NCBI GenBank assembly: GCA_018110825.1 | Contig: JAGBCL010000095.1 | Location: 310,001-374,000 of the forward strand | Length of the DNA stretch: 64,000 bases | Source: Oscillospiraceae bacterium | GTDB lineage: Bacteria > Bacillota > Clostridia > Oscillospirales > Ruminococcaceae | Reading direction: 5' to 3' | Part shown: piece by piece, positions 12,928 to 60,954 of the stretch | How positions within the stretch are numbered: the first letter of the stretch is position 1 | Layout of the letters: the number at the start of each line of letters is the position of its first letter | Notes under the pieces: model-generated | What the model was told of the DNA's origin: nothing | The model's input: the letters and a program-made list of their open reading frames with translations, nothing else | The model's database searches: none | Program-made: the position numbers and the translations under genes

Positions 12928-12962
12928 AAGGCACACGGATTTGCTTTCCGTGTGCCTTTTAT
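12928..12962. terminator. Bidirectional terminator between convergent genes
   Basis: AAGGCACACGGA (12928-12939) pairs perfectly with TCCGTGTGCCTT (12947-12958), with a U-tract on the plus strand and an A-rich lead. It serves the flavodoxin gene on the plus strand and the DUF2828 gene on the minus strand. Confidence 0.85.
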
Positions 12963-14425
12963 CAGCTTACCTTCTCGTATCTCTTGCTGTAAATGATGTT
13001 ATCCATCACAACCTCAGGAGAAACCTCGCCGCCCTTTACCATATCGAATATGGCAGGGGAGAAGCCCGAAACAAGTGCCGCACCCGTTTCCGAGAACGTA
13101 ACAGGAATATTCTGTCCGCGGCTGTTTACGTTCCAGAAAACCACGTCAGGAAGTGCGTAGCCGAAGCGTGCGTACTTCTGCTTCATAGCCTCAAACAAGG
13201 TCAGATTGTTGCCGCCCTCAATGCACCAGTCAAACTCCATGTCGGAGATGATGTACAGTCTTGAAGGAAGCTCACTCTGCGCAACCTTGTTCTTCACTGC
13301 AGTCGAAAGAATAAGCTCAAACACTGCTTCAAGGTCGGTGTTTGCAACCTCATTGAAGCGACTGCAGTAGCTTACCTTGCTTGCAATGTCCTCACCCTGA
13401 ATTTCCACAAGCTGAGGATGCTCAGAAAAGGTTATGAAGTGGTTAGCGAATGTACCCTTGTTGTGCTCCGCAAAGTAAATACCCAGTGAAAGTGCCGCAT
13501 CAATAGGTCTTACATCAACACCCCAGGTCATCGAGCCGGAGCCGTCAATAACAGCTATCGCATTGCAGTTTTCCTCACCATTACCGTGCTCGTCAAGACT
13601 TCTCCACGCCGCATCAAGTGATGCTCTTTCAGCTTCATCTGAGCAACCAAAAGCCTGTCTTACGATTTCGTAAGGGAAAAGGGTCGAAGCGTGAAGCTTT
13701 TCCTCACCCTTTACCACACGGCTGATAAAGTTGTTGTAACGTTCACCATCATTGCGGATAAACGCCTTGCGGTATTTGAACATAGCCTTTGAAGGCTGCT
13801 TCGAGTAGTCAAAGGTGTAGTCGTATTCACGCAGACGATTTTCAATGATGTCAATGTAGCTTCTCAGCGACGCAAGTGTGCGGCGGTAATCCCTCTCAGT
13901 CATACCAAACGCCTTGCAAAGCTTCTTCGCCTGCATAACCGTCTTTGCAGAGGACGCATTTACCGAAGGAAGCCACTTTGCAAGCAGAGAAACATTTTCT
14001 CCATTTGCCATGGCTTCAAGGTCAGCGTCAAGAATACGGCTGATTTCCTTCACAGCCGCATCTGCACAGCATGTGTCAAGAAGCACGCAAAGGTCATCGT
14101 ATCGACCGTACTCCGCAATAAGGGGAATATTTCTCTTTACCGCCTCAGGTGACTCTTTCGCAAGTGCCTTCATAGCAACGCGGAAGAAACGTCTTTCGCC
14201 AAGTCCGCCCCTTACATCACGTGCAAAGAAAACAATCTTCATTGTCTTCTCGGGATTTTCGTAGTACGCCTTAATAACAGCGTTTTCTATCTGTTCATCA
14301 GTCTGATTACGCATTGCCCCAGCCGTAAAGAACAGGTCAACGCAGTGCGACATGGATGAACGGTTTGTAAGCGCACCGTTTTCGGTGTACGCAATATTGT
14401 TTTCTGCTTTAAGCATGTTAAGCAT
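12962..14425 (-). CDS. DUF2828-type Ro-like protein with vWA domain
   Basis: This 487-aa protein begins at the ATG at 14425, which follows AAAGGAAG; an upstream ATG in the same frame has no ribosome site. The N-terminal part has the signature FFARDVRGGLGERRFFR and later the phrase EYGRYDDL, typical of DUF2828 helical-repeat proteins. The C-terminal part is a vWA domain with an intact metal site (DGSGSM). This architecture parallels the Ro60/Rsr proteins (HEAT-like ring plus vWA), which bind Y RNAs and misfolded RNA. The neighbouring rtcB and the RNA-like array between the two genes support an RNA-quality-control role. That role is inferred. Confidence 0.82.
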   Translation of the reverse strand: MLNMLKAENNIAYTENGALTNRSSMSHCVDLFFTAGAMRNQTDEQIENAVIKAYYENPEKTMKIVFFARDVRGGLGERRFFRVAMKALAKESPEAVKRNIPLIAEYGRYDDLCVLLDTCCADAAVKEISRILDADLEAMANGENVSLLAKWLPSVNASSAKTVMQAKKLCKAFGMTERDYRRTLASLRSYIDIIENRLREYDYTFDYSKQPSKAMFKYRKAFIRNDGERYNNFISRVVKGEEKLHASTLFPYEIVRQAFGCSDEAERASLDAAWRSLDEHGNGEENCNAIAVIDGSGSMTWGVDVRPIDAALSLGIYFAEHNKGTFANHFITFSEHPQLVEIQGEDIASKVSYCSRFNEVANTDLEAVFELILSTAVKNKVAQSELPSRLYIISDMEFDWCIEGGNNLTLFEAMKQKYARFGYALPDVVFWNVNSRGQNIPVTFSETGAALVSGFSPAIFDMVKGGEVSPEVVMDNIIYSKRYEKVS

Positions 14426-14456
14426 TGTAATCTTCCTTTCTTTCTCAAATAAATAC

Positions 14457-14509
14457 AAGGCGGAGTTTATATGTTACCCAAAAACATCTTCAATTGCTGT
14501 AACCGCCTT
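14457..14509 (-). ncRNA. Candidate small structured RNA, unit 1 of the rtcB-linked array
   Basis: The ends close as a perfect 7-bp stem (AAGGCGG at 14457-14463 with CCGCCTT at 14503-14509). On the minus strand the 5' stem is followed within 2 nt by ACAGCAAT, the octamer repeated through the array. There is no reading frame. Strand is assigned from the flanking minus-strand genes and is not certain. Confidence 0.5.
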
Positions 14510-14520
14510 AAAATGTACAT

Positions 14521-14609
14521 GGTGCAGTTTCAGTCTGGATTCGAACCCGAAAGCAGTACTTAATTGGTAAAGCGATATGCCTCATCACATGAAAATTGCT
14601 GTTTGCACC
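14521..14609 (-). ncRNA. tRNA-like structured RNA (T-arm mimic) in the rtcB-linked array
   Basis: The ends pair as GGTGCA/TGCACC and the minus-strand copy runs straight into ACCA-like sequence. Near its 3' side lies GGGTTCGAATCC, a canonical T-loop with a T-stem of five positions including one G-A mismatch. ACAGCAAT follows the 5' stem. There is no complete cloverleaf: the acceptor pairing is only 6 bp and no proper anticodon arm is found on this strand. It is therefore not called as a tRNA gene. A plus-strand TTGGTA resembles a D-loop, so the strand remains open. Confidence 0.5.
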
Positions 14610-14807
14610 ATTCTTTTTTTGTTTGGAACAAGTCGCCATTCACTATTTTTTTTTCGTAGATTTTATAAAAGGTGTGAAAAGATTGCTGTGTGCGGCTTTT
14701 ACGTTTGTTCAGGCTTCAATCGTGTCTTTCGCGGCTTTCTCACGGCCATACGCATTTCAGCGTCTTAAAACAATGCAAGCATTGCTGTGACTTGTGATAT
14801 ATGAGAA

Positions 14808-14856
14808 CTGCAAATTCAATTGCTGCTGCGGAAAACCGTTTTATTCACCCTTGCAG
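14808..14856. ncRNA. Candidate hairpin unit of the rtcB-linked array
   Basis: CTGCAA (14808-14813) pairs with TTGCAG (14851-14856), and CGG-AAAA-CCG (14829-14838) forms an inner hairpin. The diverged octamer ATTGCTGC sits at 14819. Pairing is weaker than in the other units. Confidence 0.3.
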
Positions 14857-14866
14857 ACGTTCCGAT

Positions 14867-14891
14867 AATGCAGGGCTGTGCCTGCATTTTT
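14867..14891 (+). terminator. Terminator-like hairpin inside the array
   Basis: AATGCAGG (14867-14874) pairs with CCTGCATT (14881-14888) and a T-run follows on the plus strand. It would stop plus-strand transcription, which conflicts with the simplest minus-strand model of the array. Confidence 0.45.
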
Positions 14892-14893
14892 GC

Positions 14894-14948
14894 ACGGCTT
14901 TGTTTTTTACGATTGGTAGGTCGTCATAAGTATTGCTGTTAAAGCCGT
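14894..14948 (-). ncRNA. Candidate small structured RNA next to the rtcB 3' end
   Basis: ACGGCTTT (14894-14901) and AAAGCCGT (14941-14948) form a perfect 8-bp closing stem. On the minus strand the stem is followed at once by AACAGCAAT, and an inner ACGA/TCGT stem surrounds a short loop. The unit begins 14 nt after the rtcB stop codon on the minus strand, so it could be processed from the rtcB transcript. Confidence 0.5.
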
Positions 14949-16191: not shown

Positions 16192-16357
16192 TTCTGACAA
16201 CTCCTTTTTGCTGTTTTTGTTTTGTGGTATGTTCAGAGTATAACACCACACAATGGAAAAATCATTTAAAAAAATCTGCGAACATTTCCAACCCTATTGC
16301 CATAAGAAAAAAATTCTGCTATTATTATGGTATTGAAAAAGAAAGGAAGTGAACAGT

Positions 16358-17611
16358 GTGGCAGGCTTTTCCGAGCTGATAAAAAGCTTTGACAAGACAA
16401 GGGATTACGTCCGTGATTTTTTTATCTATGGATGTAAAGTAAGAAACGATTTCAACGCAAAAAGCAGCCGTACCTACGACGACGAAAAGCGTCGTGTGGA
16501 AAGCTGGCTGGGTGATTATATACATACCGACAATTCACAGCGCGGCAAAAAGGTCTGTATCTCCGTTGACAGCGGTCACATCAGCGAAAATCCGCTCTAT
16601 AAGGCTTATTATTCCAAAAGCTTTACCGATAACGATATAAAGCTTCACTTTCTTTTGATTGATATCCTTGCCGATGGTGAAAGCTTGACCCTGAAAGAGC
16701 TTGTAAACCGACTTGCTGACGATTACGGCGAAATATTTGATGAGCAGACTGTTCGTAACAAGCTGAAAGAATATTCCGAAGAAGGTGTGTTCATTAAAGA
16801 AAAGCAGGGCAAAACCGACTATTTCAGCCTTTCTCCCGATACAGCTGAAAGCTTTTTCGGGGAGTACGATGGATTGGATAATGCCGTGAAATTTGCTTCT
16901 GAAGCAGGAATTTTCGGAGTAATAGGTAATAGCTTGCTTAAAGCGTCAGATTTGAAAAACGATATTGTTCTTAACAAGCATAACTATATCGTGCATACCC
17001 TTGAAGATGAAATACTGCTTGATATCGTAATTGCAATCGAGGAAAAACGGTTTATTTCCTATGAAAGCTTCGGCAGGGAAAAAAACGGAGAATTACCCGA
17101 ATTCAGCGGTGTTCCTTTCAGAATATTGTCCTCAATGCAAACTGGAAGACGATACCTTGCAATGTACAATAGGAAATATAATCGTTTTAATTCTGTGCGT
17201 CTTGATAGTATCAAAGCTGTGAGGATAGGTGAGGTTTGTCACGAATATGACGAACTGTTTGAGATGTATATAAAGAACGAGCATAAATGCTTTGGTGTAT
17301 CATTCGGAAGAAGAACCGAATTGGGACACGTTGAACCGATAAAGCTTACAATTTATGCAGATGAACAAAAAGAGAATTTCATTATTAACCGACTTGAAAG
17401 GGAAAAACGCTGCGGTACGGTTGAAAAAGTTGCAGAAAACACCTTTACCTTCACCGCCGATGTCTTTGACCCTAATGAGATTATGCACTGGGCAAAAAGC
17501 TTTATCGGACGTATTATTTCCGTTGAGGGCGGCAATGAGGAAATCCGCAGTAAATTTTACAACGACATAGAAAGAATGAACAGGATGTACTGTGATGAAA
17601 AGAAAAAATAA
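16358..17611 (+). CDS. WYL-domain transcriptional regulator (first of pair)
   Basis: This 417-aa protein has two possible GTG starts, at 16349 and 16358. The latter has normal spacing after GAAAGGAAG. Residues about 95-145 form a winged helix (LTLKELVNRLADDYG, then EQTVRNKLKEYSEEG). The C-terminal half contains the WYL fold (about 230-330) and its C-terminal extension. WYL proteins bind nucleic-acid or nucleotide ligands and often control DNA- and RNA-damage or defence genes. The gene diverges from rtcB across a 166-bp gap and overlaps a second WYL gene. It is a good candidate for the regulator of the rtcB locus, in the role RtcR plays elsewhere. Confidence 0.85.
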   Translation: MAGFSELIKSFDKTRDYVRDFFIYGCKVRNDFNAKSSRTYDDEKRRVESWLGDYIHTDNSQRGKKVCISVDSGHISENPLYKAYYSKSFTDNDIKLHFLLIDILADGESLTLKELVNRLADDYGEIFDEQTVRNKLKEYSEEGVFIKEKQGKTDYFSLSPDTAESFFGEYDGLDNAVKFASEAGIFGVIGNSLLKASDLKNDIVLNKHNYIVHTLEDEILLDIVIAIEEKRFISYESFGREKNGELPEFSGVPFRILSSMQTGRRYLAMYNRKYNRFNSVRLDSIKAVRIGEVCHEYDELFEMYIKNEHKCFGVSFGRRTELGHVEPIKLTIYADEQKENFIINRLEREKRCGTVEKVAENTFTFTADVFDPNEIMHWAKSFIGRIISVEGGNEEIRSKFYNDIERMNRMYCDEKKK

Positions 17612-18587
17612 TATTTTCAGTGAGCTGTACGGCACATATTACCGTACAGCAGCGAAAATTCTTGCAAAAGATTCTGTAACCGAAAGCGATATCTATAAGA
17701 TAATTTCAGAAGAAACTTTTTCTGATTCTGCACTGTTCATACCACAGAAGCTTATTCCGAGAAACGGTTTATCTGATTGGGGATTGCTTTTTTCAAAGGA
17801 CGGCAAAAGCTTTTCCTCCGTGCTTAATCATAAGCCTTTGAATATTGCAACCGAGCTTCAGAAGTGCTGGCTAAAAGCACAGCTTTCAGACCCGAAATTC
17901 AGGTTGTTTATTGATGACAACGTAATCGAAAAGCTTGAAAAGCGACTTGAAAGTGTAAAGCCGCTTTTCAGTAATTCAATGTTCAGAAGCTCTGATGTTT
18001 TCAGCGATGGAGACCCATATACCGATGAAAATTACATAAAGAATTTCCGTACAATTGTCAATGCAATCAAGGCAAAAGAAATTATTGATGTAGAATTTAT
18101 GTCTGGACGGAACGAACGCAAACATGGCCATTTTTTGCCTCTGAGACTGGAATATTCACGTAAGAATGACAAGTTCAGAATATATTGTTCAGCTTATCAC
18201 AACCGCCATTGGAGCAACGGTCTGATTAACCTTGGAAGAATAATTTCCGTAAAAAGCATTGACAGCAAGGTCAGTTATGAAACAAATATGGAAGAGTATT
18301 TCATGCTGCGTAAATGTACGGAACCGGTGATTGTTGAGGTGACTCCCGAACGCAATGGCGTTGAGCGATTTATGATGGAGTTTGCAGCGTATGAAAAATA
18401 CACAGAGCGTGACCTGAAAACAGGTGTCTGTACGGTTAAGCTGTGGTACGATAAAGCAGACGAAACCGAGGTATTGATTCGATTATTAAGTTTCGGTCCC
18501 GTCATAGAAATAAAAGCACCGCAAAGCTTTCGTGCACTTGCCGCAGAACGTGTGAAAAATCAGTATGAATTGTTAAATAAAGCATAA
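17595..18587 (+). CDS. WYL-domain regulator (second of pair)
   Basis: This 330-aa protein starts at ATG 17595 (a GTG directly before it is an alternative) and overlaps the previous gene by 17 nt, so the two are translationally coupled. It contains a WYL-like region around residues 155-245 (FLPLRLEYSRKNDKFRIYC, then LINLGRIISVKSIDS). It also has the C-terminal extension seen in the first protein, but the N-terminal part lacks an obvious helix-turn-helix. Paired WYL genes, one with and one without a clear DNA-binding domain, suggest a heteromeric regulator. Divergence from rtcB points to that target. Confidence 0.8.
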   Translation: MKRKNNIFSELYGTYYRTAAKILAKDSVTESDIYKIISEETFSDSALFIPQKLIPRNGLSDWGLLFSKDGKSFSSVLNHKPLNIATELQKCWLKAQLSDPKFRLFIDDNVIEKLEKRLESVKPLFSNSMFRSSDVFSDGDPYTDENYIKNFRTIVNAIKAKEIIDVEFMSGRNERKHGHFLPLRLEYSRKNDKFRIYCSAYHNRHWSNGLINLGRIISVKSIDSKVSYETNMEEYFMLRKCTEPVIVEVTPERNGVERFMMEFAAYEKYTERDLKTGVCTVKLWYDKADETEVLIRLLSFGPVIEIKAPQSFRALAAERVKNQYELLNKA

Positions 18588-18748: not shown

Positions 18749-19174
18749 ATGAAAATAAAAACAGACAAGCTTGAAAATCAGCTTTCTGAAATTTCAGATT
18801 TCAGTGATTACCTTGAAAAAAACAGTGAAAACCTTATTTCTGAGATAAAGCTTGCAGAATACCTGGAGCAGCTTCTTGAAACAACAGGTTGTACTAAGTC
18901 TTACATAATCAAGCAGACTAACCTCAACCGCGCATATGTCTATCAGATTTTTGAAGGCAAGAAAAATCCATCGCGTGATAAGCTTATTGCAATTGCATTT
19001 GGAATGAAGCTTGCCTTTGACGAAATTCAGGACTTGCTTAAATATGCAGGAATGCGTCAGCTTTATGCACGTGATACAAGAGATGCTGTGATTATTTTTT
19101 CTGTGCAGCACGGTTATAGCTTTGAGAAAATGAACGCTTTTCTTTACGAACAGCATCTGAAAACAATTGAATGA
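18749..19174 (+). CDS. XRE-like helix-turn-helix protein (XRE1, copy A)
   Basis: This 141-aa protein starts at the ATG at 18749 after GGGAGAG. The centre is a Cro/C1-type helix-turn-helix: YIIKQTNLNRAYVYQIFEGK, then PSRDKLIAIAFGM. The N-terminal 40 residues form an acidic helix (FSDYLEKNSENLISEIKLAE). The C-terminal 45 residues form a conserved tail (LLKYAGMRQLYARDTRDAVI). A close paralogue lies at 54681-55112 on the minus strand. Both copies are followed by the same second XRE gene, so the pair forms a regulatory cassette for the clusters described here. Confidence 0.85.
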   Translation: MKIKTDKLENQLSEISDFSDYLEKNSENLISEIKLAEYLEQLLETTGCTKSYIIKQTNLNRAYVYQIFEGKKNPSRDKLIAIAFGMKLAFDEIQDLLKYAGMRQLYARDTRDAVIIFSVQHGYSFEKMNAFLYEQHLKTIE

Positions 19175-19216
19175 ATCTGAATATGCAAGTACAATAACAA
19201 AATTTACAGTTCAGCC

Positions 19217-19252
19217 CCTAAAGATATTGATTTTTGCACCATAAAGATATTT
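19217..19252 (+). promoter_or_regulatory. Paired AAAGATATT elements upstream of XRE2 copy A
   Basis: CCTAAAGATATT (19217-19228) and ATAAAGATATTT (19241-19252) are direct repeats 24 bp apart. The same pair, 22 bp apart, precedes the paralogous gene at 54540 on the other strand. The CCTAAA half also appears in the palindromes at 19771 and 57148, so this is a likely shared operator. Confidence 0.6.
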
Positions 19253-19312
19253 GAATAAATAACCGATAGGGTATAAAGTTATAATATCTAAAGAATGGAT
19301 TGGCGGTGTAAT

Positions 19313-19663
19313 ATGAGTATTGAACGTGAAGAACTGGCAGTGAAAGTCGGTGCACGGATTCGTGATTTCCGAGCAGAACGAGGATTAAGTCAGGAAAGTC
19401 TTGCGCTGAATTCAGGTATGCATCCGGCATATCTCGGTAAAATTGAACGCGGAGAGAAATGTCCGACAATCGATACCCTCAGCAAAATCTGCAGTGGTCT
19501 TAAAATACCTGTTTGTGAGCTTCTGAATTTTGAAATCAATGTAAAACCAACTTCAGGAGAGGCTCTTCATCGTATTGAAAATGCTCTTGCAGGTGTTGAT
19601 GATGAGTCAGCTGTGAAGATAGCTGAAATAGTTGAAGGTATCGCTGAAATATATAAAAAATAA
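19313..19663 (+). CDS. XRE-family regulator (XRE2, copy A)
   Basis: This 116-aa protein starts at ATG 19313. An in-frame ATG at 19295 lacks a ribosome site. The helix-turn-helix occupies residues 10-65 (IRDFRAERGLSQESLALNSG, then PAYLGKIERGEKCPTIDTL). The C-terminal tail (about 75-116) is helical. It is nearly identical to the product at 54190-54540. The CCTAAA/AAAGATATT motif before its own gene and the related palindromes before two operons suggest this protein, or XRE1, represses those promoters. Confidence 0.92.
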   Translation: MSIEREELAVKVGARIRDFRAERGLSQESLALNSGMHPAYLGKIERGEKCPTIDTLSKICSGLKIPVCELLNFEINVKPTSGEALHRIENALAGVDDESAVKIAEIVEGIAEIYKK

Positions 19664-19672
19664 TGTAATTCT

Positions 19673-19705
19673 AAGCAGAATCGTAAGTTATGTGCGATTC
19701 TGCTT
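19673..19705 (+). terminator. Terminator after XRE2 copy A (first hairpin)
   Basis: AAGCAGAATCG (19673-19683) pairs with CGATTCTGCTT (19695-19705), followed by TGTTTTT. Confidence 0.85.
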
Positions 19706-19713
19706 TGTTTTTG

Positions 19714-19745
19714 AGTCCTTTCGTAAAAACGAAGGGACTTTTTTT
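19714..19745 (+). terminator. Second tandem terminator
   Basis: AGTCCTTTCGT (19714-19724) pairs with ACGAAGGGACT (19729-19739) and is followed by seven T. Two consecutive terminators insulate the regulators from the AAA operon. Confidence 0.88.
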
Positions 19746-19770
19746 ATGCTTTTTTGGTGATTTTGCACCA

Positions 19771-19831
19771 CCTAAAAGTACTATTTTATAATACTTTTAG
19801 GGTTGACTAAATAAGACCTTGGTGGTATAAT
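19771..19831 (+). promoter_or_regulatory. Promoter of the AAA operon with a 10-bp-arm palindromic operator
   Basis: CCTAAAAGTA (19771-19780) and TACTTTTAGG (19792-19801) form a perfect inverted repeat with an 11-bp spacer that ends 1 bp before the -35. The promoter is TTGACT (19803-19808), 17 bp, TATAAT (19826-19831). The same 10-11-10 geometry and the same promoter layout recur at 57148-57208. A repressor site shared by the two clusters is the natural reading. The leader from here to 19978 contains no gene. Confidence 0.75.
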
Positions 19832-19978
19832 ATTAGTCAGTAATTATCAAAAATCACAAAAACTCGACAAGATACAGCAAATAATTTGTGCGTTAAACCA
19901 AAATGCATGTGCTTGTTTGTAACAATCGTATCGACAAGTATAAAATCAAGTAATCAAAATTTGTATGGGGTGATAAAA

Positions 19979-20914
19979 ATGCCGATAAATACAAAGCCTA
20001 TACAGGAGCAAGCTGAACAGGAAAAGCCAAGAAAAGGAAGTCAGATGGATATTTCCTTAAGCGAACCGCATTATTCCTTTTCAGATATTATTCTGAGCCA
20101 CACGACGTCTGAAGCTGTTCAGGATGTAATTTCCATGTACACATACAGAGAAAAGGTGTATGACCATTGGGGGTTATCAAAGGTTATAAAAACACAGAAA
20201 AATATTTGTGCAAACTTTTATGGGCAATCCGGTGTAGGAAAAACAATAACTGCCCAAGCCGTTGCCGAGCAACTCGGTAAAAAAATTCTGCAGGTCAATT
20301 ATGCAGATATCGAATCAAAATACGTTGGAGAAACCTCAAAAAATCTGGTAACCATTTTTTCGGAAGCAGAAAAAAATAATGCGGTTCTGTTGTTTGATGA
20401 AGCGGACGCGTTATTGAGCCGTAGAGTAACTGAAATGCGCAGTTCAACAGATGTCAGTGTTAATCAGACACGTTCAGTTCTGCTTACGCTGTTGGATACA
20501 TTTGAGGGAATGGTGATTTTTACCACAAATTTCATTGACAATTATGACTCTGCATTTATGCGTCGAATTCCTTATCATATCGCATTTGAACTGCCTGATG
20601 AGGTCCAGAGAAAACGGCTGTGGGAACATTATCTTGTGGAAAACCTTCCGCATACGGCTGATACAGACTTTCTTACTGAAATCAGTGCAGGATGTTCAGG
20701 TGCTGATATTTCAACAGCAACATTGAATGCTGCCTTTCGTGCCGCAAGAAAGGGCCTTGATATAATACCGAATGATTTCTTCAAAGACGCTGTAACTGCA
20801 ATTATAAACAGCAAACTGGTAAATTCAGGAATGAAAAAATTAAGCGTAGTTACAAGAGAAGTTACCGAGGAATATGCATTATCGCAAATCAACAAAAAGG
20901 AGAATGAAAAATGA
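19979..20914 (+). CDS. AAA+ ATPase heading the middle operon
   Basis: This 311-aa protein starts at ATG 19979 after ATGGGGTG; 31 upstream in-frame codons are excluded. It is a single classic AAA module with Walker A GQSGVGKTITAQA, Walker B AVLLFDEADALL, a pore-loop-like KYVGETSKN and sensor 1 FTTNF. A lid has SGADISTATLNAAFRAA. It resembles the FtsH/Ycf46/spastin-type ATPases that pull on protein substrates. Its downstream partners are small membrane-anchored proteins and two larger unknown proteins, all with gaps of under 20 bp or overlaps. They may form a membrane-linked remodelling machine. Confidence 0.88.
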   Translation: MPINTKPIQEQAEQEKPRKGSQMDISLSEPHYSFSDIILSHTTSEAVQDVISMYTYREKVYDHWGLSKVIKTQKNICANFYGQSGVGKTITAQAVAEQLGKKILQVNYADIESKYVGETSKNLVTIFSEAEKNNAVLLFDEADALLSRRVTEMRSSTDVSVNQTRSVLLTLLDTFEGMVIFTTNFIDNYDSAFMRRIPYHIAFELPDEVQRKRLWEHYLVENLPHTADTDFLTEISAGCSGADISTATLNAAFRAARKGLDIIPNDFFKDAVTAIINSKLVNSGMKKLSVVTREVTEEYALSQINKKENEK

Positions 20915-21258
20915 TTTTACCTGCATTAATTTTAGGTGCCGTAATAGTTGGTACATCTTTAGTTGCAATTTTCTGGAACAAGGTTGTTGAAACACTGCAG
21001 AAAGTTATCAACAAAATTAAGGTTGCAATGAATCGTACAGTTTTAGGCTGTACCATCAAGCTGAAACGTCTGGGTGACAGATTCCAGAATCGTCAGAGTC
21101 ATTTCAGTAAGGATGAACAGGGAAACTGGCAGGAACAGATTGTTACTTACGAACAGAATGCTGAGGAAATACCTGACAAATACAAGGAAGGTAACTATGC
21201 CACTATGGATGACGAGTTTGATATTTCCGATGACCTTGAATTGCAGCTGAAACATTAA
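20911..21258 (+). CDS. Small membrane-anchored protein of the AAA operon
   Basis: This 115-aa protein overlaps the ATPase stop by 4 nt (ATGA) and has a good AAAGGAG site. A hydrophobic segment occupies residues 2-22. It is followed by a basic amphipathic stretch (about 25-60) and an acidic C terminus (DDEFDISDDLELQLKH). No known domain is visible. The strict coupling to the ATPase suggests a membrane partner. Confidence 0.7.
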   Translation: MILPALILGAVIVGTSLVAIFWNKVVETLQKVINKIKVAMNRTVLGCTIKLKRLGDRFQNRQSHFSKDEQGNWQEQIVTYEQNAEEIPDKYKEGNYATMDDEFDISDDLELQLKH

Positions 21259-21271
21259 CGGAGGAACTGAT

Positions 21272-21631
21272 ATGATAGAAAATAACTTGAAAAATAATTT
21301 TACGGGACTTAAGGATGCTTTTATATATACGATTCAATCTATGGCAGGAAAAAGAAGTATTGACACATATCTTGCTGCACTAAGCGAGGTTACAGACAAT
21401 GTAATCACAGAAAGCGAAAAAAAGAATCTGACATATAAGAACGGTACCTGTACGATGAAATATGAAGACGGCGATTGTATCAATGTTGAGTTTGTACTTA
21501 ACTTTGAAAATGAAGTCGGAAATGTGGTAAAAAAAGCTGACCGTAAGATTGCAAAAAAGACATTTACCACCGCTGCACTGAAAACTCTTCAGCAAGCAGG
21601 TTCCATGTCATTCAATATCGAACATCCTTAA
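21272..21631 (+). CDS. Small unidentified protein of the AAA operon
   Basis: This 119-aa soluble protein starts at an ATG after CGGAGGAAC. It has an N-terminal helix pair, a central beta-like stretch (YKNGTCTMKYEDGDCINVEF), and a C-terminal Lys-rich helix. Nothing in it matches a family I know. Its place between two membrane proteins in a tightly spaced operon supports it as a real gene. Confidence 0.65.
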   Translation: MIENNLKNNFTGLKDAFIYTIQSMAGKRSIDTYLAALSEVTDNVITESEKKNLTYKNGTCTMKYEDGDCINVEFVLNFENEVGNVVKKADRKIAKKTFTTAALKTLQQAGSMSFNIEHP

Positions 21632-21650
21632 AATACGTGGGGGTATACAT

Positions 21651-22409
21651 ATGCATATTATTATTGGGATTATAGTTGTTCTGTTTGTCGGTTCTTTGAT
21701 TATAACATTGTTAAAGGAATTGCTTCCTATTCTTTTGAAGCTGGCAGGAATTGTCATAGTAATCGCTATTATCGTTGCAATTGCAAAGGCAATCGGGTTG
21801 TGGAATATTGCTAAATTTTTACTTGGTGCACTTGCTGTTTTTGTGGTTTTCTGTATATTCTGCGCAGTAACAAGCAACCATAGTGAGCAGCGGCTTGATG
21901 AATATCTTGAAAGCCATTGCAAGGAGCAGGGGTGTATGTCTCCTGACAGATGGAGAAAACTTTTGCCGCAATATGTGTCACAGCTTGGTGAAGAAAGATT
22001 TGATGCAATCACAAAAGAGTTTGCGAAAAAGTGCGAACAAAGATATCTTTCAACCTCGGACCGCAGCTGGTTTTCACCTGCGGAGAGAATGATTAAGGAA
22101 AAGGGTATCGTGTCTTTTTATGAATTGATTTATAATACAAAATACCCTGCGTTCAAGTATACTCATGTGACTGATAATGTAACACTTGTTGTGAGAATGA
22201 TAGAAAAATCTGAGGAAGACAGTAATTGCATTTTTGAAAAGAAGTTTGTAGCCTCAGAGGAACAGTTCAGAAATCAGATGGTAAATTTGAAAAACGTGGA
22301 ACTTACCGAGAGATTGAGAACACATTATGGACTCAAGGACAAATACAGCTCAATGTCTGAAAAGAAGATAGAGCGTATTGAATTGTCTTTGGACGATCTG
22401 GATATATAA
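21651..22409 (+). CDS. Membrane protein with two or three N-terminal spans
   Basis: This 252-aa protein starts at ATG 21651 after GTGGGGG. Residues 2-21, about 25-46 and 52-76 are strongly hydrophobic. The rest is a soluble, charged, mostly helical cytoplasmic domain with several Cys residues (CKEQGCMS). It ends in SEKKIERIELSLDDLDI. It is not assignable to a family. It may anchor the AAA protein or its substrate at the membrane. Confidence 0.7.
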   Translation: MHIIIGIIVVLFVGSLIITLLKELLPILLKLAGIVIVIAIIVAIAKAIGLWNIAKFLLGALAVFVVFCIFCAVTSNHSEQRLDEYLESHCKEQGCMSPDRWRKLLPQYVSQLGEERFDAITKEFAKKCEQRYLSTSDRSWFSPAERMIKEKGIVSFYELIYNTKYPAFKYTHVTDNVTLVVRMIEKSEEDSNCIFEKKFVASEEQFRNQMVNLKNVELTERLRTHYGLKDKYSSMSEKKIERIELSLDDLDI

Positions 22410-22425
22410 AAAGGAAATGAAGTAT

Positions 22426-23904
22426 ATGACTATTGAAAAATACATAAAGAATAATGCATATAAATTAAGCTGGAGAACAAGCATTGCTCCGAATATTCCG
22501 TTCAAGACCCTTGAATTGATTGGAAATTCCTTTGCTGATGATATTCCTGATACTTATGTGGTAGCTGTCGGTGATGCAACCTTATTCGGTAAGGGTACAC
22601 GTGGATTTGCATTCAGTGGTTACAGTCTTTTCTTTTCGAACGACGGAAAGGAAAAATTCAAGATAGATTTCCATGAAATTACAGCTGCTGAATTTATTCC
22701 CTGCGGCAAGAGAAGACATGATAACATGTATATGCTTGATGATATTGTCAGAATTTATTGCAGAAATGGCGATACATATGATGTAGGAGAATGCCTTATC
22801 GGTTTTGACTGCGGTGAGTTTGAGTCATTTATAAATGGAATTGTTTCTCTTATAGATGATGGTGTTGAGCCGTTGTGTACAAGGCAGATTGTTTCGGTTT
22901 CAGATATGTCTGATTGTACCAAAACTGCGTATGTCAAAACCTTATGTAACTATGCATATCTCAATAACAGCTATATTGACCCGGACAGCTATTCTGCAAT
23001 TCAGAATATTATTGTACGTCTTGAGCTGAATGCTGAAGTGCGGAATGAGCTCAGGGATTATATGCAGAGCATAGAAAACAAGGTAAAAACAGGTTATCTT
23101 ATCAAATTGATTGCCGACTCCACTGATTTCGGAAGCTTTGAGGTTGTGCGGTTTGCACTTGTTCAGGACGTGCTTTATCTTCACAATTTATTGAAGCATG
23201 ACGATGCATGGCAGAATGATGGTTTTGTCGGAAGCATGATAAATGCATTCGGAATAACTCCGGAACAAGTTGATTTGCTGATTGAAGCATGCAGGCTGAA
23301 CTATAAGGTTACCCACTCAGACAATAATTTGATTTCTATGCAGTCTGATTATGATGCTTTGCAAAAGCAAGCTATAAGGCAGAATGTTCCGCTGATATCT
23401 CTTTATTGTGCAGGTTCAGCGTACAGTATCGATACGTATTTCTCAATCTTCGGCGGAAGAAACAAAAAACAGCTTTCAATAGATAAGCAGCGTGAACTTA
23501 TGCTTCAGGAAATAATTAAGAATAATCAGAAAACTGTTAATCATCTTGTGGAAGATATGAATGAAATTTCCGAACAGCTGATTTCAGAACTCCAGAAGAG
23601 CATGGTTGCAAATGAGAAAATCAAACAGCTTGCTGCCTTACTGGGACGTCTTAAAGCAGGTGCGACAAATACCGTTGACAAGGTTGAACGAACAGAACGG
23701 CTTACCTTGCTCAATTCAATTCCTCAGAGTCTTGACCAAAGGAAAATAAAAGTTTCACTCAATAAGGATTATTATGATATTATTCAGAAGTCGTATGTCT
23801 CAAAATCAGGTGTGCTCACGCTAAGAGAAAATCTCAGCATGGAAGAACTGACGAAGCTATATCGTTTTCTTTCAGATATCGGATACCCCATGAACAAAAG
23901 GTAA
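22426..23904 (+). CDS. Unknown protein with PH-like N terminus and possible TerB-like repeats
   Basis: This 492-aa protein starts at ATG 22426. The earlier ATG at 22417 touches the AAAAAGGAA site and is unlikely. Residues about 15-110 read like a beta-rich PH-type domain (VVAVGDATLFGKGTRGFAFS, then SLFFSND). Two helical stretches follow (about 165-215 and 240-300, including GITPEQVDLLIEACRLNYK). Their spacing of acidic and hydrophobic residues recalls TerB-like domains. A Gln/Glu-rich coiled coil comes at about 350-430. TerB-like identity is a guess from pattern. TerB-type proteins often sit at membranes with kinases and AAA ATPases, which would fit this operon. Confidence 0.6.
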   Translation: MTIEKYIKNNAYKLSWRTSIAPNIPFKTLELIGNSFADDIPDTYVVAVGDATLFGKGTRGFAFSGYSLFFSNDGKEKFKIDFHEITAAEFIPCGKRRHDNMYMLDDIVRIYCRNGDTYDVGECLIGFDCGEFESFINGIVSLIDDGVEPLCTRQIVSVSDMSDCTKTAYVKTLCNYAYLNNSYIDPDSYSAIQNIIVRLELNAEVRNELRDYMQSIENKVKTGYLIKLIADSTDFGSFEVVRFALVQDVLYLHNLLKHDDAWQNDGFVGSMINAFGITPEQVDLLIEACRLNYKVTHSDNNLISMQSDYDALQKQAIRQNVPLISLYCAGSAYSIDTYFSIFGGRNKKQLSIDKQRELMLQEIIKNNQKTVNHLVEDMNEISEQLISELQKSMVANEKIKQLAALLGRLKAGATNTVDKVERTERLTLLNSIPQSLDQRKIKVSLNKDYYDIIQKSYVSKSGVLTLRENLSMEELTKLYRFLSDIGYPMNKR

Positions 23905-23910
23905 ATTGAC

Positions 23911-25464
23911 GTGAAAAAAGTAAGTAGAATTGATTCTTCACATTTGAAGGATATGGGAAATGCAGCTAAGGTTCAGCGGCACCAGTTATCGTCTGCTGAA
24001 CAGCAGATGCTTCAAATGAAAAATACTGCTGCTGCAATCTCAGAAATAAATGATTATAATCTGGATTCGCTTGATGCTCTCATTGCGGAGGCAGAAGCCC
24101 TGGCCGCAAATGACGGAATAATGACTGATTCCTTTACAGAGAGCGAGTATGAATACGGTGCTCAGCTTGCAGGATTTGATGAGATTTCTGTGGAAAGAAC
24201 GAATACTATAACTCTTACCGAGGTAGTTGACTTCAATGAAAATACAAGTTGGGAAGCATATCTTCATAATGTGAATGTCTATGCAAAATCAAACAATATC
24301 GACCTGACTACCGACCCGTTTATTACCACAATGAGTCAAAATCAGATTACCGCCATTCAGGAGAGGGTAAAGAAAGATTACTACGAACGCACTCCGCAAT
24401 GCGATAAATTTGATTATCTGATTGCAACTTTCTGCGGTGTTGTTTCAGGATTGATAGACTCATTTTTTGTTGGAATACCAAAGCAGAGCGTGCTTGGTAA
24501 CTGGACTGATGAGCAGTCAAGAAAGTTTATATTAAATGCCAGTCATGTCATTCGGACATGTGAGCACGGCTCCGTCAAGTATTCTACAACTTACAGCAGT
24601 GCCGTTCATTTTTTAGAAACACAATTCCCGATAAATTATGACATGACATCTGTACCAAAAGGAATTGCTCCAGATTTTAAATTTTCGCTAGGCTCTACAA
24701 ATCACCACCTTAAATCGCTTGCCCATTGTCCTGATATTTTCGGATTGATTTTTTCAATCATTGACCAGTTTACAAATGAAACAACATTTGTTGATAACGG
24801 AAGATTGATAAGAATAGTTCCTGATAATGTGAATTCAAATTTCAGACTTGAAGGTGCAAATATTGTTGCTAAGGTCTTTTCTGCTGTTTCAAACTGGTTC
24901 GGACATCTTTTATCAGACTTCGTAGGTTCAAGCAGTACCGTAAAAGACGGCGGACGCGGTTCGGGTATTCCGATACCATTTTACGAAATGTTCAGCTTCT
25001 GCAATTTCGGCAATCTTGATGGTAATACTATTGCGGAAATGTCTGTCAAGATTTTTGAAAACGGATATGATTTAAGATTCGGAATAACCCAGTCTATTCC
25101 GGTTGCAATAAATGAATTGCTGATAAGGATGCTTTACACATTCAAATATCATTTTTACAACAAGATACCAATGAATGAGCTTCTGAAGCTGAAAGCAGAA
25201 CCAGAGCTCAACCGTATGCTTCTTGTAGGGCATAGTGCACTTTGTCTTGTTGATACAGCTGATGCGGCTGTACGCAGCGGATGCAGCAACTGGCTTGATT
25301 TTATATTGCGATTGAATGGTGCAGCATGGCTTAGACTTTCATTTGCATGCCTTGCGGAAATCAAATCAATCTATCATCGTAATCATATCGACGTAAAAAA
25401 ACTCGATAAGGAACTTGAGGATAATTGGAAAGAATTATGCACTGAAATGCTTGAAAACAAGTAA
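23911..25464 (+). CDS. Large unidentified protein closing the AAA operon
   Basis: This 517-aa protein starts with GTG at 23911, 6 nt after the previous stop. An N-terminal helical region (about 1-80) is rich in Gln, Glu and Ala. The central part has hydrophobic helices (YLIATFCGVVSGLIDSFFVG at about 168-187). A Gly-rich segment follows (VKDGGRGSGIPIPFYEMF at about 345-362). The C-terminal third is helical with further hydrophobic stretches. It could be a membrane-associated effector. I recognise no family. A perfect 15-bp terminator stem follows directly, which marks the end of the operon. Confidence 0.65.
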   Translation: MKKVSRIDSSHLKDMGNAAKVQRHQLSSAEQQMLQMKNTAAAISEINDYNLDSLDALIAEAEALAANDGIMTDSFTESEYEYGAQLAGFDEISVERTNTITLTEVVDFNENTSWEAYLHNVNVYAKSNNIDLTTDPFITTMSQNQITAIQERVKKDYYERTPQCDKFDYLIATFCGVVSGLIDSFFVGIPKQSVLGNWTDEQSRKFILNASHVIRTCEHGSVKYSTTYSSAVHFLETQFPINYDMTSVPKGIAPDFKFSLGSTNHHLKSLAHCPDIFGLIFSIIDQFTNETTFVDNGRLIRIVPDNVNSNFRLEGANIVAKVFSAVSNWFGHLLSDFVGSSSTVKDGGRGSGIPIPFYEMFSFCNFGNLDGNTIAEMSVKIFENGYDLRFGITQSIPVAINELLIRMLYTFKYHFYNKIPMNELLKLKAEPELNRMLLVGHSALCLVDTADAAVRSGCSNWLDFILRLNGAAWLRLSFACLAEIKSIYHRNHIDVKKLDKELEDNWKELCTEMLENK

Positions 25465-60604: not shown

Positions 60605-60954
60605 TGGTGGAGATGACGGGAATCGAACCCGTGTCCGAAAATCTATCCGCACAACTTTCTACGAGCGTAGTTTGTCATTGACATTCCCTCGCATAGCCGT
60701 GGACAAACACACCGCTATGCTCAGTAGCCTGCAATACATTACACGGACGCAGGCATTTCCGTGTAACGTTCACCACTAGTCGGCGCCTGATCCGAAGCCG
60801 TGGTACTCAACGGTCAGACGAGCAGCAATTAAGCAGCTGCTAATTCAAAATTATTGTTGTCGTCTAATTTTAAAACGTGCGCCTTTTAAAGAGATTTGCG
60901 CTTCTCTGCTCGCTTATCATGTTTCAAAATCCCCGTCGAAACCTTTACATCCCC
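60605..60954 (-). ncRNA. ssrA: Transfer-messenger RNA (tmRNA)
   Basis: The 5' end GGGGATGTAAAGGTTTCGAC (from 60954) and the 3' end with T-loop GGGTTCGATTCC and terminal ACCA are classical. GGGGATG pairs with CATCTCC to form the acceptor stem. The tag frame ends in DDNNNFELAAA-stop (stop at 60831-60829). The RNA is about 350 nt. It rescues stalled ribosomes together with SmpB, whose gene lies 45 nt upstream, so the two are probably co-transcribed and the RNA is trimmed from the precursor. Its last 12 nt are repeated at 38401. Confidence 0.97.

Follow-up and report, generated by a model that had tools for sequence, protein, structure and literature searches.

A row of Y-RNA-like units beside a DUF2828 gene in an Oscillospiraceae bacterium, with cores that may serve as tRNA decoys

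In a stretch of 64,000 nucleotides from an Oscillospiraceae bacterium (contig JAGBCL010000095.1, positions 310,001 to 374,000; here called the window), the DNA between rtcB, which encodes an RNA ligase, and a gene for a DUF2828 protein carries a repeated octamer, and the copies of this octamer are confirmed as markers of a minus-strand row of small RNA units lying between these two genes. We read the array as Y-RNA-like small RNAs that would be carried by the DUF2828 protein and act as decoys against tRNA-cutting enzymes, a proposal that we hold at about even chances. Every unit has a common handle, made of a stem of 7-8 bp, the motif ACAGCAA and an unpaired G after the stem, and this handle would be the binding site of DUF2828. 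The cargo differs by unit, and many cargoes imitate tRNA, as a lone anticodon arm, a full tRNA body that lacks the CCA end or a YrlA-type module in circularly permuted order. The tRNA pieces, often anticodon arms, would be offered to anticodon-cutting enzymes so that genuine tRNAs are spared, and RtcB could reseal the RNAs that are cut. If so, DUF2828 proteins gain a likely RNA partner, and the biology of Ro60, the bacterial purpose of which is in our judgement largely open, is joined to the contest over tRNA cleavage. The decoy idea is testable, as each recognisable anticodon arm names the tRNA to be protected.

The units and their shared handle

A first-pass annotation of this DNA had proposed, from repeated hairpins, a Y-RNA-like family serving a DUF2828/RtcB repair complex. 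The octamer on which it relied, ATTGCTGT, indeed has five exact copies on the plus strand (at 14493, 14595, 14682, 14781 and 14932) and one near copy, ATTGCTGC, at 14819; rtcB and the DUF2828 gene are both on the minus strand, where the octamer reads ACAGCAAT. Since the window holds 14 copies of ATTGCTGT (shuffled mean 3.8) and the host genome of 3.1 Mb holds 201 forward and 167 reverse copies, the cluster of five copies on a single strand in about 0.45 kb far exceeds the background. The perfect closing stems described earlier for 14894-14948 (8 bp) and 14457-14509 (7 bp) were found again, and beyond those two, a perfect 8-bp stem encloses 14519-14611 and a 7-bp stem with one C.A mismatch encloses 14630-14698. 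Four units are so defined, with the octamer copies at 14781 and 14819 outside them. The strand, which had been left open, is the minus strand, as ACAGCAA is present in the orientation of DUF2828 in 69/76 homologous regions and in the opposite orientation in 1/76.

These regions come from a search with the DUF2828 protein that gave 78 loci, mostly labelled Oscillospiraceae, Ruminococcus, Lachnospiraceae and other Clostridia; 75 of them were compared together with the window. The commonest 7-mer by number of regions is ACAGCAA, and a strong stem surrounds 82.6% of 293 ACAGCA sites, compared with 5.8% when the downstream sequence is shuffled and 12.5% at random positions. When the offset was left free, ACAGCA fell at unit position 10 in 238 of 245 units. 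A strict detector, with a fixed ACAGCA offset and no bonus for flanking bases, found 226 sense units and 0 antisense units, spread over 69 of the 76 regions upstream of DUF2828; a G stands directly after the stem in 223 of the 226. A single region can have as many as 7 units (L049, L087). The handle resembles, in our reading, a tRNA acceptor stem followed by two linker bases and the discriminator base. In an alignment of 44 units, 94% of stem cells pair (73% when shuffled, 32-51% when slid) and double changes occur at seven of the eight stem pairs, so the compensatory changes whose absence was to have counted against the family are there. Because the aligned units had been selected for having stems, the comparison of 82.6% with 5.8% after downstream shuffling is the less biased test. 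The 5' and 3' ends of the units thus form a conserved stem, as in bacterial Y RNAs.

Of 299 genomes sampled across the phylum, only 4 have DUF2828, and of 21 genomes of the genus, 5 have it. A covariance model built from the short units was run on these 21 genomes, in a test limited by the scoring of at most 150 first-pass candidates per genome. Matches with E <0.01 were obtained in three genomes only (G000, G003 and G004), every one of them at the DUF2828 locus, and in the 16 genomes without DUF2828 the best match had E 0.0988. In the other two genomes with DUF2828, the gene of G013 sits where a contig ends, and two long tandem units of G015 escaped the model but can be read by eye. Upstream of DUF2828 in L012, two near-identical tandem units, each roughly 190 nt long and closed by the stem ACGATACC/GGTATCGT, were read by eye.

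Relatives of DUF2828 were also found in 682 of 50,697 phage records and 4 of 72,556 plasmid records. In a phage, viral and plasmid set of 91 loci (75 non-redundant), the strict detector gave 110 sense units and 1 antisense unit, in 41 loci. Among the named records (11 regions, 10 phage and 1 plasmid), 10 have units, in the sense direction only, against a shuffled rate of 3 per 832 kb; KVP40 has no unit with either the strict motif or the relaxed motif NCAGCAA. With the relaxed motif, 16 of 34 unit-less loci gain matches (25 sense, 4 antisense), many of them behind TTAGATGA-like stems, though some of the 25 sense matches do not look like true units. Some phage loci (L153, L158, L161, L165 and others) show a variant handle, with a TTAGATGA-like stem followed by TCAGCAA or GCAGCAA, and by eye the loops CGTTTAA (L161, L165) and CCGTTAA (L153) are like Lys/Asn loops with base 33 altered. 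Units lie amid tRNA genes in a Felixounavirus and close to tRNA genes in Listeria phage P100 and an Enterococcus phage, and in P100 RtcB is within the same stretch as the units.

It could be argued that such a short motif has no RNA function and reflects DNA repeats, terminators or chance, particularly as T-runs on the plus strand had been pointed out in the first-pass annotation. However, neither strand of the array showed a terminator-like site, and the strand bias of 226 to 0, the covariation and the spread across bacteria and phages led us to reject this explanation, to which we give next to no credence. A promoter scan gave 3 matches, which is not above the shuffled mean of 3.5.

Within the window, the unit at 14457..14509 (minus strand, 44.8 bits) has the 7-bp stem AAGGCGG/CCGCCTT, then ACAGCAAT, with the G after the stem at 14456, and its core is a hairpin with the 7-nt loop TTTGGGT, which is an exact Pro-UGG anticodon loop. 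The unit at 14519..14611 (minus strand) has the 8-bp stem ATGGTGCA/TGCACCAT, ACAGCAAT and a long core with a T-loop-like GGGTTCGAATCC; it reaches only 12.3 bits with covariance model R1, and its homologue in L016 is read by ARAGORN as a tRNA-like body. The unit at 14630..14698 (minus strand, 26.4 bits) has the stem AAGCCGC/GCGACTT with the single C.A mismatch, ACAGCAAT and an A/T-rich core, with the G after the stem at 14629. The unit at 14894..14948 (minus strand, 40.5 bits) has the 8-bp stem ACGGCTTT/AAAGCCGT, ACAGCAAT and a core hairpin, the loop of which is CTACCAA plus one extra C in the window and CTGTCAA (anticodon GUC, Asp type) in the homologues of L015 and L016. Outside the defined units, on the same strand, are the isolated ACAGCAAT copy at 14781..14788, which is replaced by a different sequence in the closest relatives L015 and L016, and the near copy GCAGCAAT at 14819..14826. 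Folded singly, 14894-14948, 14519-14611 and 14457-14509 make the closing stem and leave ACAGCAAU unpaired, and a small inner hairpin is seen in 14894-14948 and, in the minimum-energy structure only, in 14457-14509. The minimum-energy structure of 14630-14698 is another fold (z-score -0.79), and the z-scores of the other three units are -2.75, -2.21 and -0.98; folding by itself is not decisive for the units.

DUF2828 as a Ro-like partner and the relation to YrlA

In the DUF2828 protein, helical repeats form a ring that is joined by a vWA domain, which is the fold of the human autoantigen Ro60. It does not match Pfam TROVE (PF05731), its matches at E <=0.001 being DUF7788 and DUF2828 only, and the DUF2828 profile had no match among PDB sequences, so its likeness to Ro60 rests on the fold; DUF2828 is a Ro-like protein by fold and stands outside TROVE by sequence. 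The same genome contains a second Ro system (L223, G000:C57, about 35.1 kb) with a TROVE gene (PF05731, E 2e-32) and three minus-strand hairpin units (1417-1461, 1503-1614 and 1657-1696), all sharing TACTTCG behind stems of 8-9 bp; one of these units has a YrlA-type module of 45.2 bits, below the cut-off.

Among 75 loci, 19 have rtcB upstream, 13 have it downstream and 43 do not have it within the examined flank (many flanks end at contig ends), and the downstream copies have 27-32% identity to the rtcB of the window. Since rtcB is outside the examined flank in 43/75 loci, the partner of the array is probably DUF2828 rather than RtcB, and a tie of the array to rtcB instead was rejected. Of the earlier proposal, then, a Y-RNA-like family linked to the DUF2828 protein is supported, with units in 69/76 regions, compensatory stem changes, the Ro60 fold and YrlA-type modules in some units of relatives in its favour. 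The tRNA likeness of the cores was not part of that proposal. Transcription of the array, its binding by DUF2828 and a repair complex are what we infer from these sequences.

The array RNAs are Y-RNA-like in anatomy and gene setting, yet they fall outside the Rfam YrlA family. As with YrlA (RF02553) and Rsr/Ro60, small RNAs with paired ends lie by a gene of the Ro family and, in some loci, by rtcB, and some units have a tRNA-like module permuted as in YrlA, with a T arm, a capped acceptor stem and a D arm. Unlike YrlA, the consensus of which has AUGCUUGG beside the basal stem, the units have ACAGCA in this place as part of the ACAGCAA handle, and many of them have, in place of the permuted module, an anticodon arm or a core that was not recognised. 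The permuted modules of relatives score below the YrlA threshold (best 53.8 bits, cut-off 69), and plain membership of RF02553 was rejected on this basis; the array of the window had no RF02553 match with E up to 10. Five of the six YrlA matches in array regions coincide with units, but sub-threshold matches are weak alone because 7/14 control genomes have them too.

The Salmonella rsr-yrlBA-rtcBA operon, as outlined in the cited part of PMC7790460, similarly brings together a Ro-type gene, Y-like RNAs and RtcB, with a divergent regulator. Here, DUF2828 replaces by sequence the TROVE protein Rsr, regulators of the WYL type replace RtcR, and no recognised rtcA is seen beside rtcB in the window. 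Some jumbo phages have a TROVE-type RNA-binding protein that, in cells, is described with its tRNA-like partner as an RNA-repair platform (PMC7824862), and mycobacteriophages carry Ro60-like proteins (PMC12363180); in the cited portions of these two papers, a shared handle, rows of units and anticodon arms are not described. Record annotations of the phage proteins also include 'Ro-like RNA binding protein'. Chen in 2014 reportedly found likely Y RNAs beside Ro60 in more than 250 species of bacteria and phages, with one or more tRNA-like RNAs in every case, so part of our phage set may be known already.

tRNA likeness of the cores and candidate functions

Many cores mimic tRNA, as full bodies, permuted YrlA-like modules or lone anticodon arms. 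With 110 anticodon loops with U33 as the reference (from 523 tRNAs outside units), 33 of the 241 distinct cores from bacteria and 27 of the 110 from phages, viruses and plasmids have a hairpin with a 7-nt loop identical to a real anticodon loop. The corresponding antisense controls gave 2 and 0, and mononucleotide-shuffled cores gave means of 1.13 and 0.53 (maximum 3). The exact loops represent Phe, Lys, Met, Asn, Ser, Asp, Pro, Arg and others, and Lys-UUU is the commonest among those of the mostly phage set, where it makes up 10 of the 27 and occurs in 9 loci. ARAGORN called 14 tRNAs across the array regions, 12 of them fully within a unit and the other two (L073, L079) outside, and none of the 12 unit-internal bodies has a CCA end as printed. 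In Rfam searches of ten loci, six array units passed the tRNA cut-off. The tRNA-like domain is clear in some loci; the window has just the T-loop-like core of 14519..14611, which neither ARAGORN nor Rfam calls. Two recurring cores are not obviously tRNA, GGGnCAGAGAACGC...GGCACTCTGAT and GGGGCATAGTATGCCGGAC...GGCACTATG (loci L019, L021, L022, L025, L026, L029, L075; L027, L031, L045, L047), and by eye they look like one structured RNA. A regular expression for the T loop was dropped as a test of mimicry, because TTCGAA is its own reverse complement and many antisense matches were counted.

The anticodon itself changes between homologous units. In 33 homologous unit pairs that are 85% or more identical once the loop is left aside (the recognised loops having been supplemented manually with three more), differing sites numbered 25/98 in the anticodon, 8/132 at other loop positions, 21/330 in the arm stem, 61/749 in the rest of the core and 12/528 in the 5' stem plus ACAGCAA; the Fisher p of 4e-5 for the anticodon contrast is valid only if the pairs are independent. 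One scaffold carries three anticodons, Lys UUU (L019, L021, L029), Asn GUU (L046) and Ser GCU (L022), and another carries GCC (Gly; L031, L039), GUC (Asp; L047) and UUU (L027). As the pairs are not independent, sites were also counted by scaffold family, and the anticodon is changed in 5 of 13 families as grouped by our own reading. The excess of change at the anticodon is a hint, not proof.

Decoy action is the function that fits best because of the lone anticodon arms, the changing anticodons, the CCA-less tRNA bodies and the tRNA-rich phages. Cleavage of tRNA is a common anti-phage defence, and phage tRNAs that evade tRNA-cutting defences (PMC11555353 and PMC12409363, in the parts cited) are like the units in being phage RNAs with features that such enzymes attack. 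Unlike phage-encoded tRNAs, the units have no CCA end or working tRNA acceptor stem (the 12 unit-internal bodies, as printed, do not have the 7-bp acceptor stem with CCA end of a tRNA), so replacement of tRNAs is not expected and any help would be as a decoy. Competitive inhibition was proposed as one idea for YrlA by Hughes et al. in the cited part of PMC7790460. A wider proposal, that exchangeable anticodon-arm decoys on a Ro-like protein form a widespread RNA shield against tRNA-cutting toxins and defences, with the anticodon tracking the target nuclease and the scaffold kept constant, we consider plausible at somewhat less than even chances. Among the matches listed by a literature search of titles and abstract openings in openly licensed papers, there were no anticodon-arm arrays beside DUF2828.

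Several observations weigh against decoys. An exact anticodon loop is absent from 208/241 bacterial and 83/110 other cores, many cores have no recognised tRNA likeness, and some recurring ones fit no recognised model. The array of the window has one exact loop only (Pro-UGG of 14457-14509), and no strict unit was found in 34/75 phage, viral and plasmid loci. The T-loop expression, a weak test, gave 56/241 sense and 32 antisense matches, and the anticodon contrast counted per scaffold family (9/39 versus 5/52 sites, p = 0.09) is not significant. In Salmonella, according to the cited part of PMC7790460, no YrlA fragments were seen and the SOS-induced nuclease was judged not to act on YrlA, which would fit an inhibitor and not a sacrificial substrate.

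The strongest competitor, in our view a clearly less probable one, is that each tRNA-like cargo brings a different tRNA-handling enzyme (a nuclease, modification enzyme, synthetase or RtcB) to the Ro-like ring, so that the array serves several tasks. Such tethering has a precedent in YrlA and PNPase of the Deinococcus RYPER complex. The tRNA-like domain of YrlA ties Rsr to PNPase, and YrlA is a target of modification by DusA and TruB (PMC8394870, in the part cited); some arrays contain permuted YrlA-like cargo. However, lone anticodon arms have no counterpart of the D, T and acceptor arms mimicked by the YrlA domain, and a fixed partner enzyme gives no obvious cause for anticodon change among homologous units.

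Much less credible is a set of antisense regulators, in which the anticodon loops would base-pair with codons of mRNAs, with T-box leaders or with complementary anticodons of tRNAs. Of 107 seven-nt loops with stems of at least 5 bp, 70 have U33 and 79 have a purine at position 37 (24% and 50% in shuffled cores), but antisense hairpins lean likewise (U33 in 82/152, purine 37 in 128/152), so this lean is weak alone. The enrichment of exact loops is confined to the sense anticodon loop, the antisense controls being 2 and 0, and three bases give little specificity; antisense guides or splints were rejected because only sense anticodon loops are enriched.

Neighbouring genes and regulation

The DUF2828/DUF7788 protein with the Ro60 fold is encoded at 12962..14458 on the minus strand, and its start is, in our reading, probably at 14425. 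The RNA ligase gene rtcB (PF01139; 14962..16251, minus strand) is on the same strand as the array and upstream of it. Divergent from these is a WYL-type regulator at 16349..17611 on the plus strand (PADLOC WYL model E 4e-7, Pfam WYL only 0.19), followed by a second WYL-type regulator at 17592..18587, also on the plus strand (PADLOC WYL model E 5e-12, Pfam WCX 0.008). The 260 nt upstream of rtcB or of the first unit include a TTCGCA box in 32/69 loci, the background being 0.06 boxes per 260 nt, and in 22 of those 32 it is at 56-87 nt.

The two divergent WYL-type regulators and the upstream box suggest another function, namely that the RNAs are baits, and that their cleavage fragments with a 2',3'-cyclic phosphate signal damage to the WYL regulators, by which the array, DUF2828 and rtcB are induced. 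We regard such a sensor as improbable, since the phage arrays and DUF2828 occur without an annotated WYL-type gene in 9 annotated phage regions (where many genes are merely hypothetical), and ordinary tRNA fragments could serve as the signal.

Adjoining the WYL genes, the region 18749-25464 of the window contains a helix-turn-helix protein at 19295-19663 (Pfam HTH_3) and several uncharacterised open frames, with what we read as a probable AAA-type ATPase at 19886-20914. A tmRNA gene is located on the minus strand of the window at 60605-60954.
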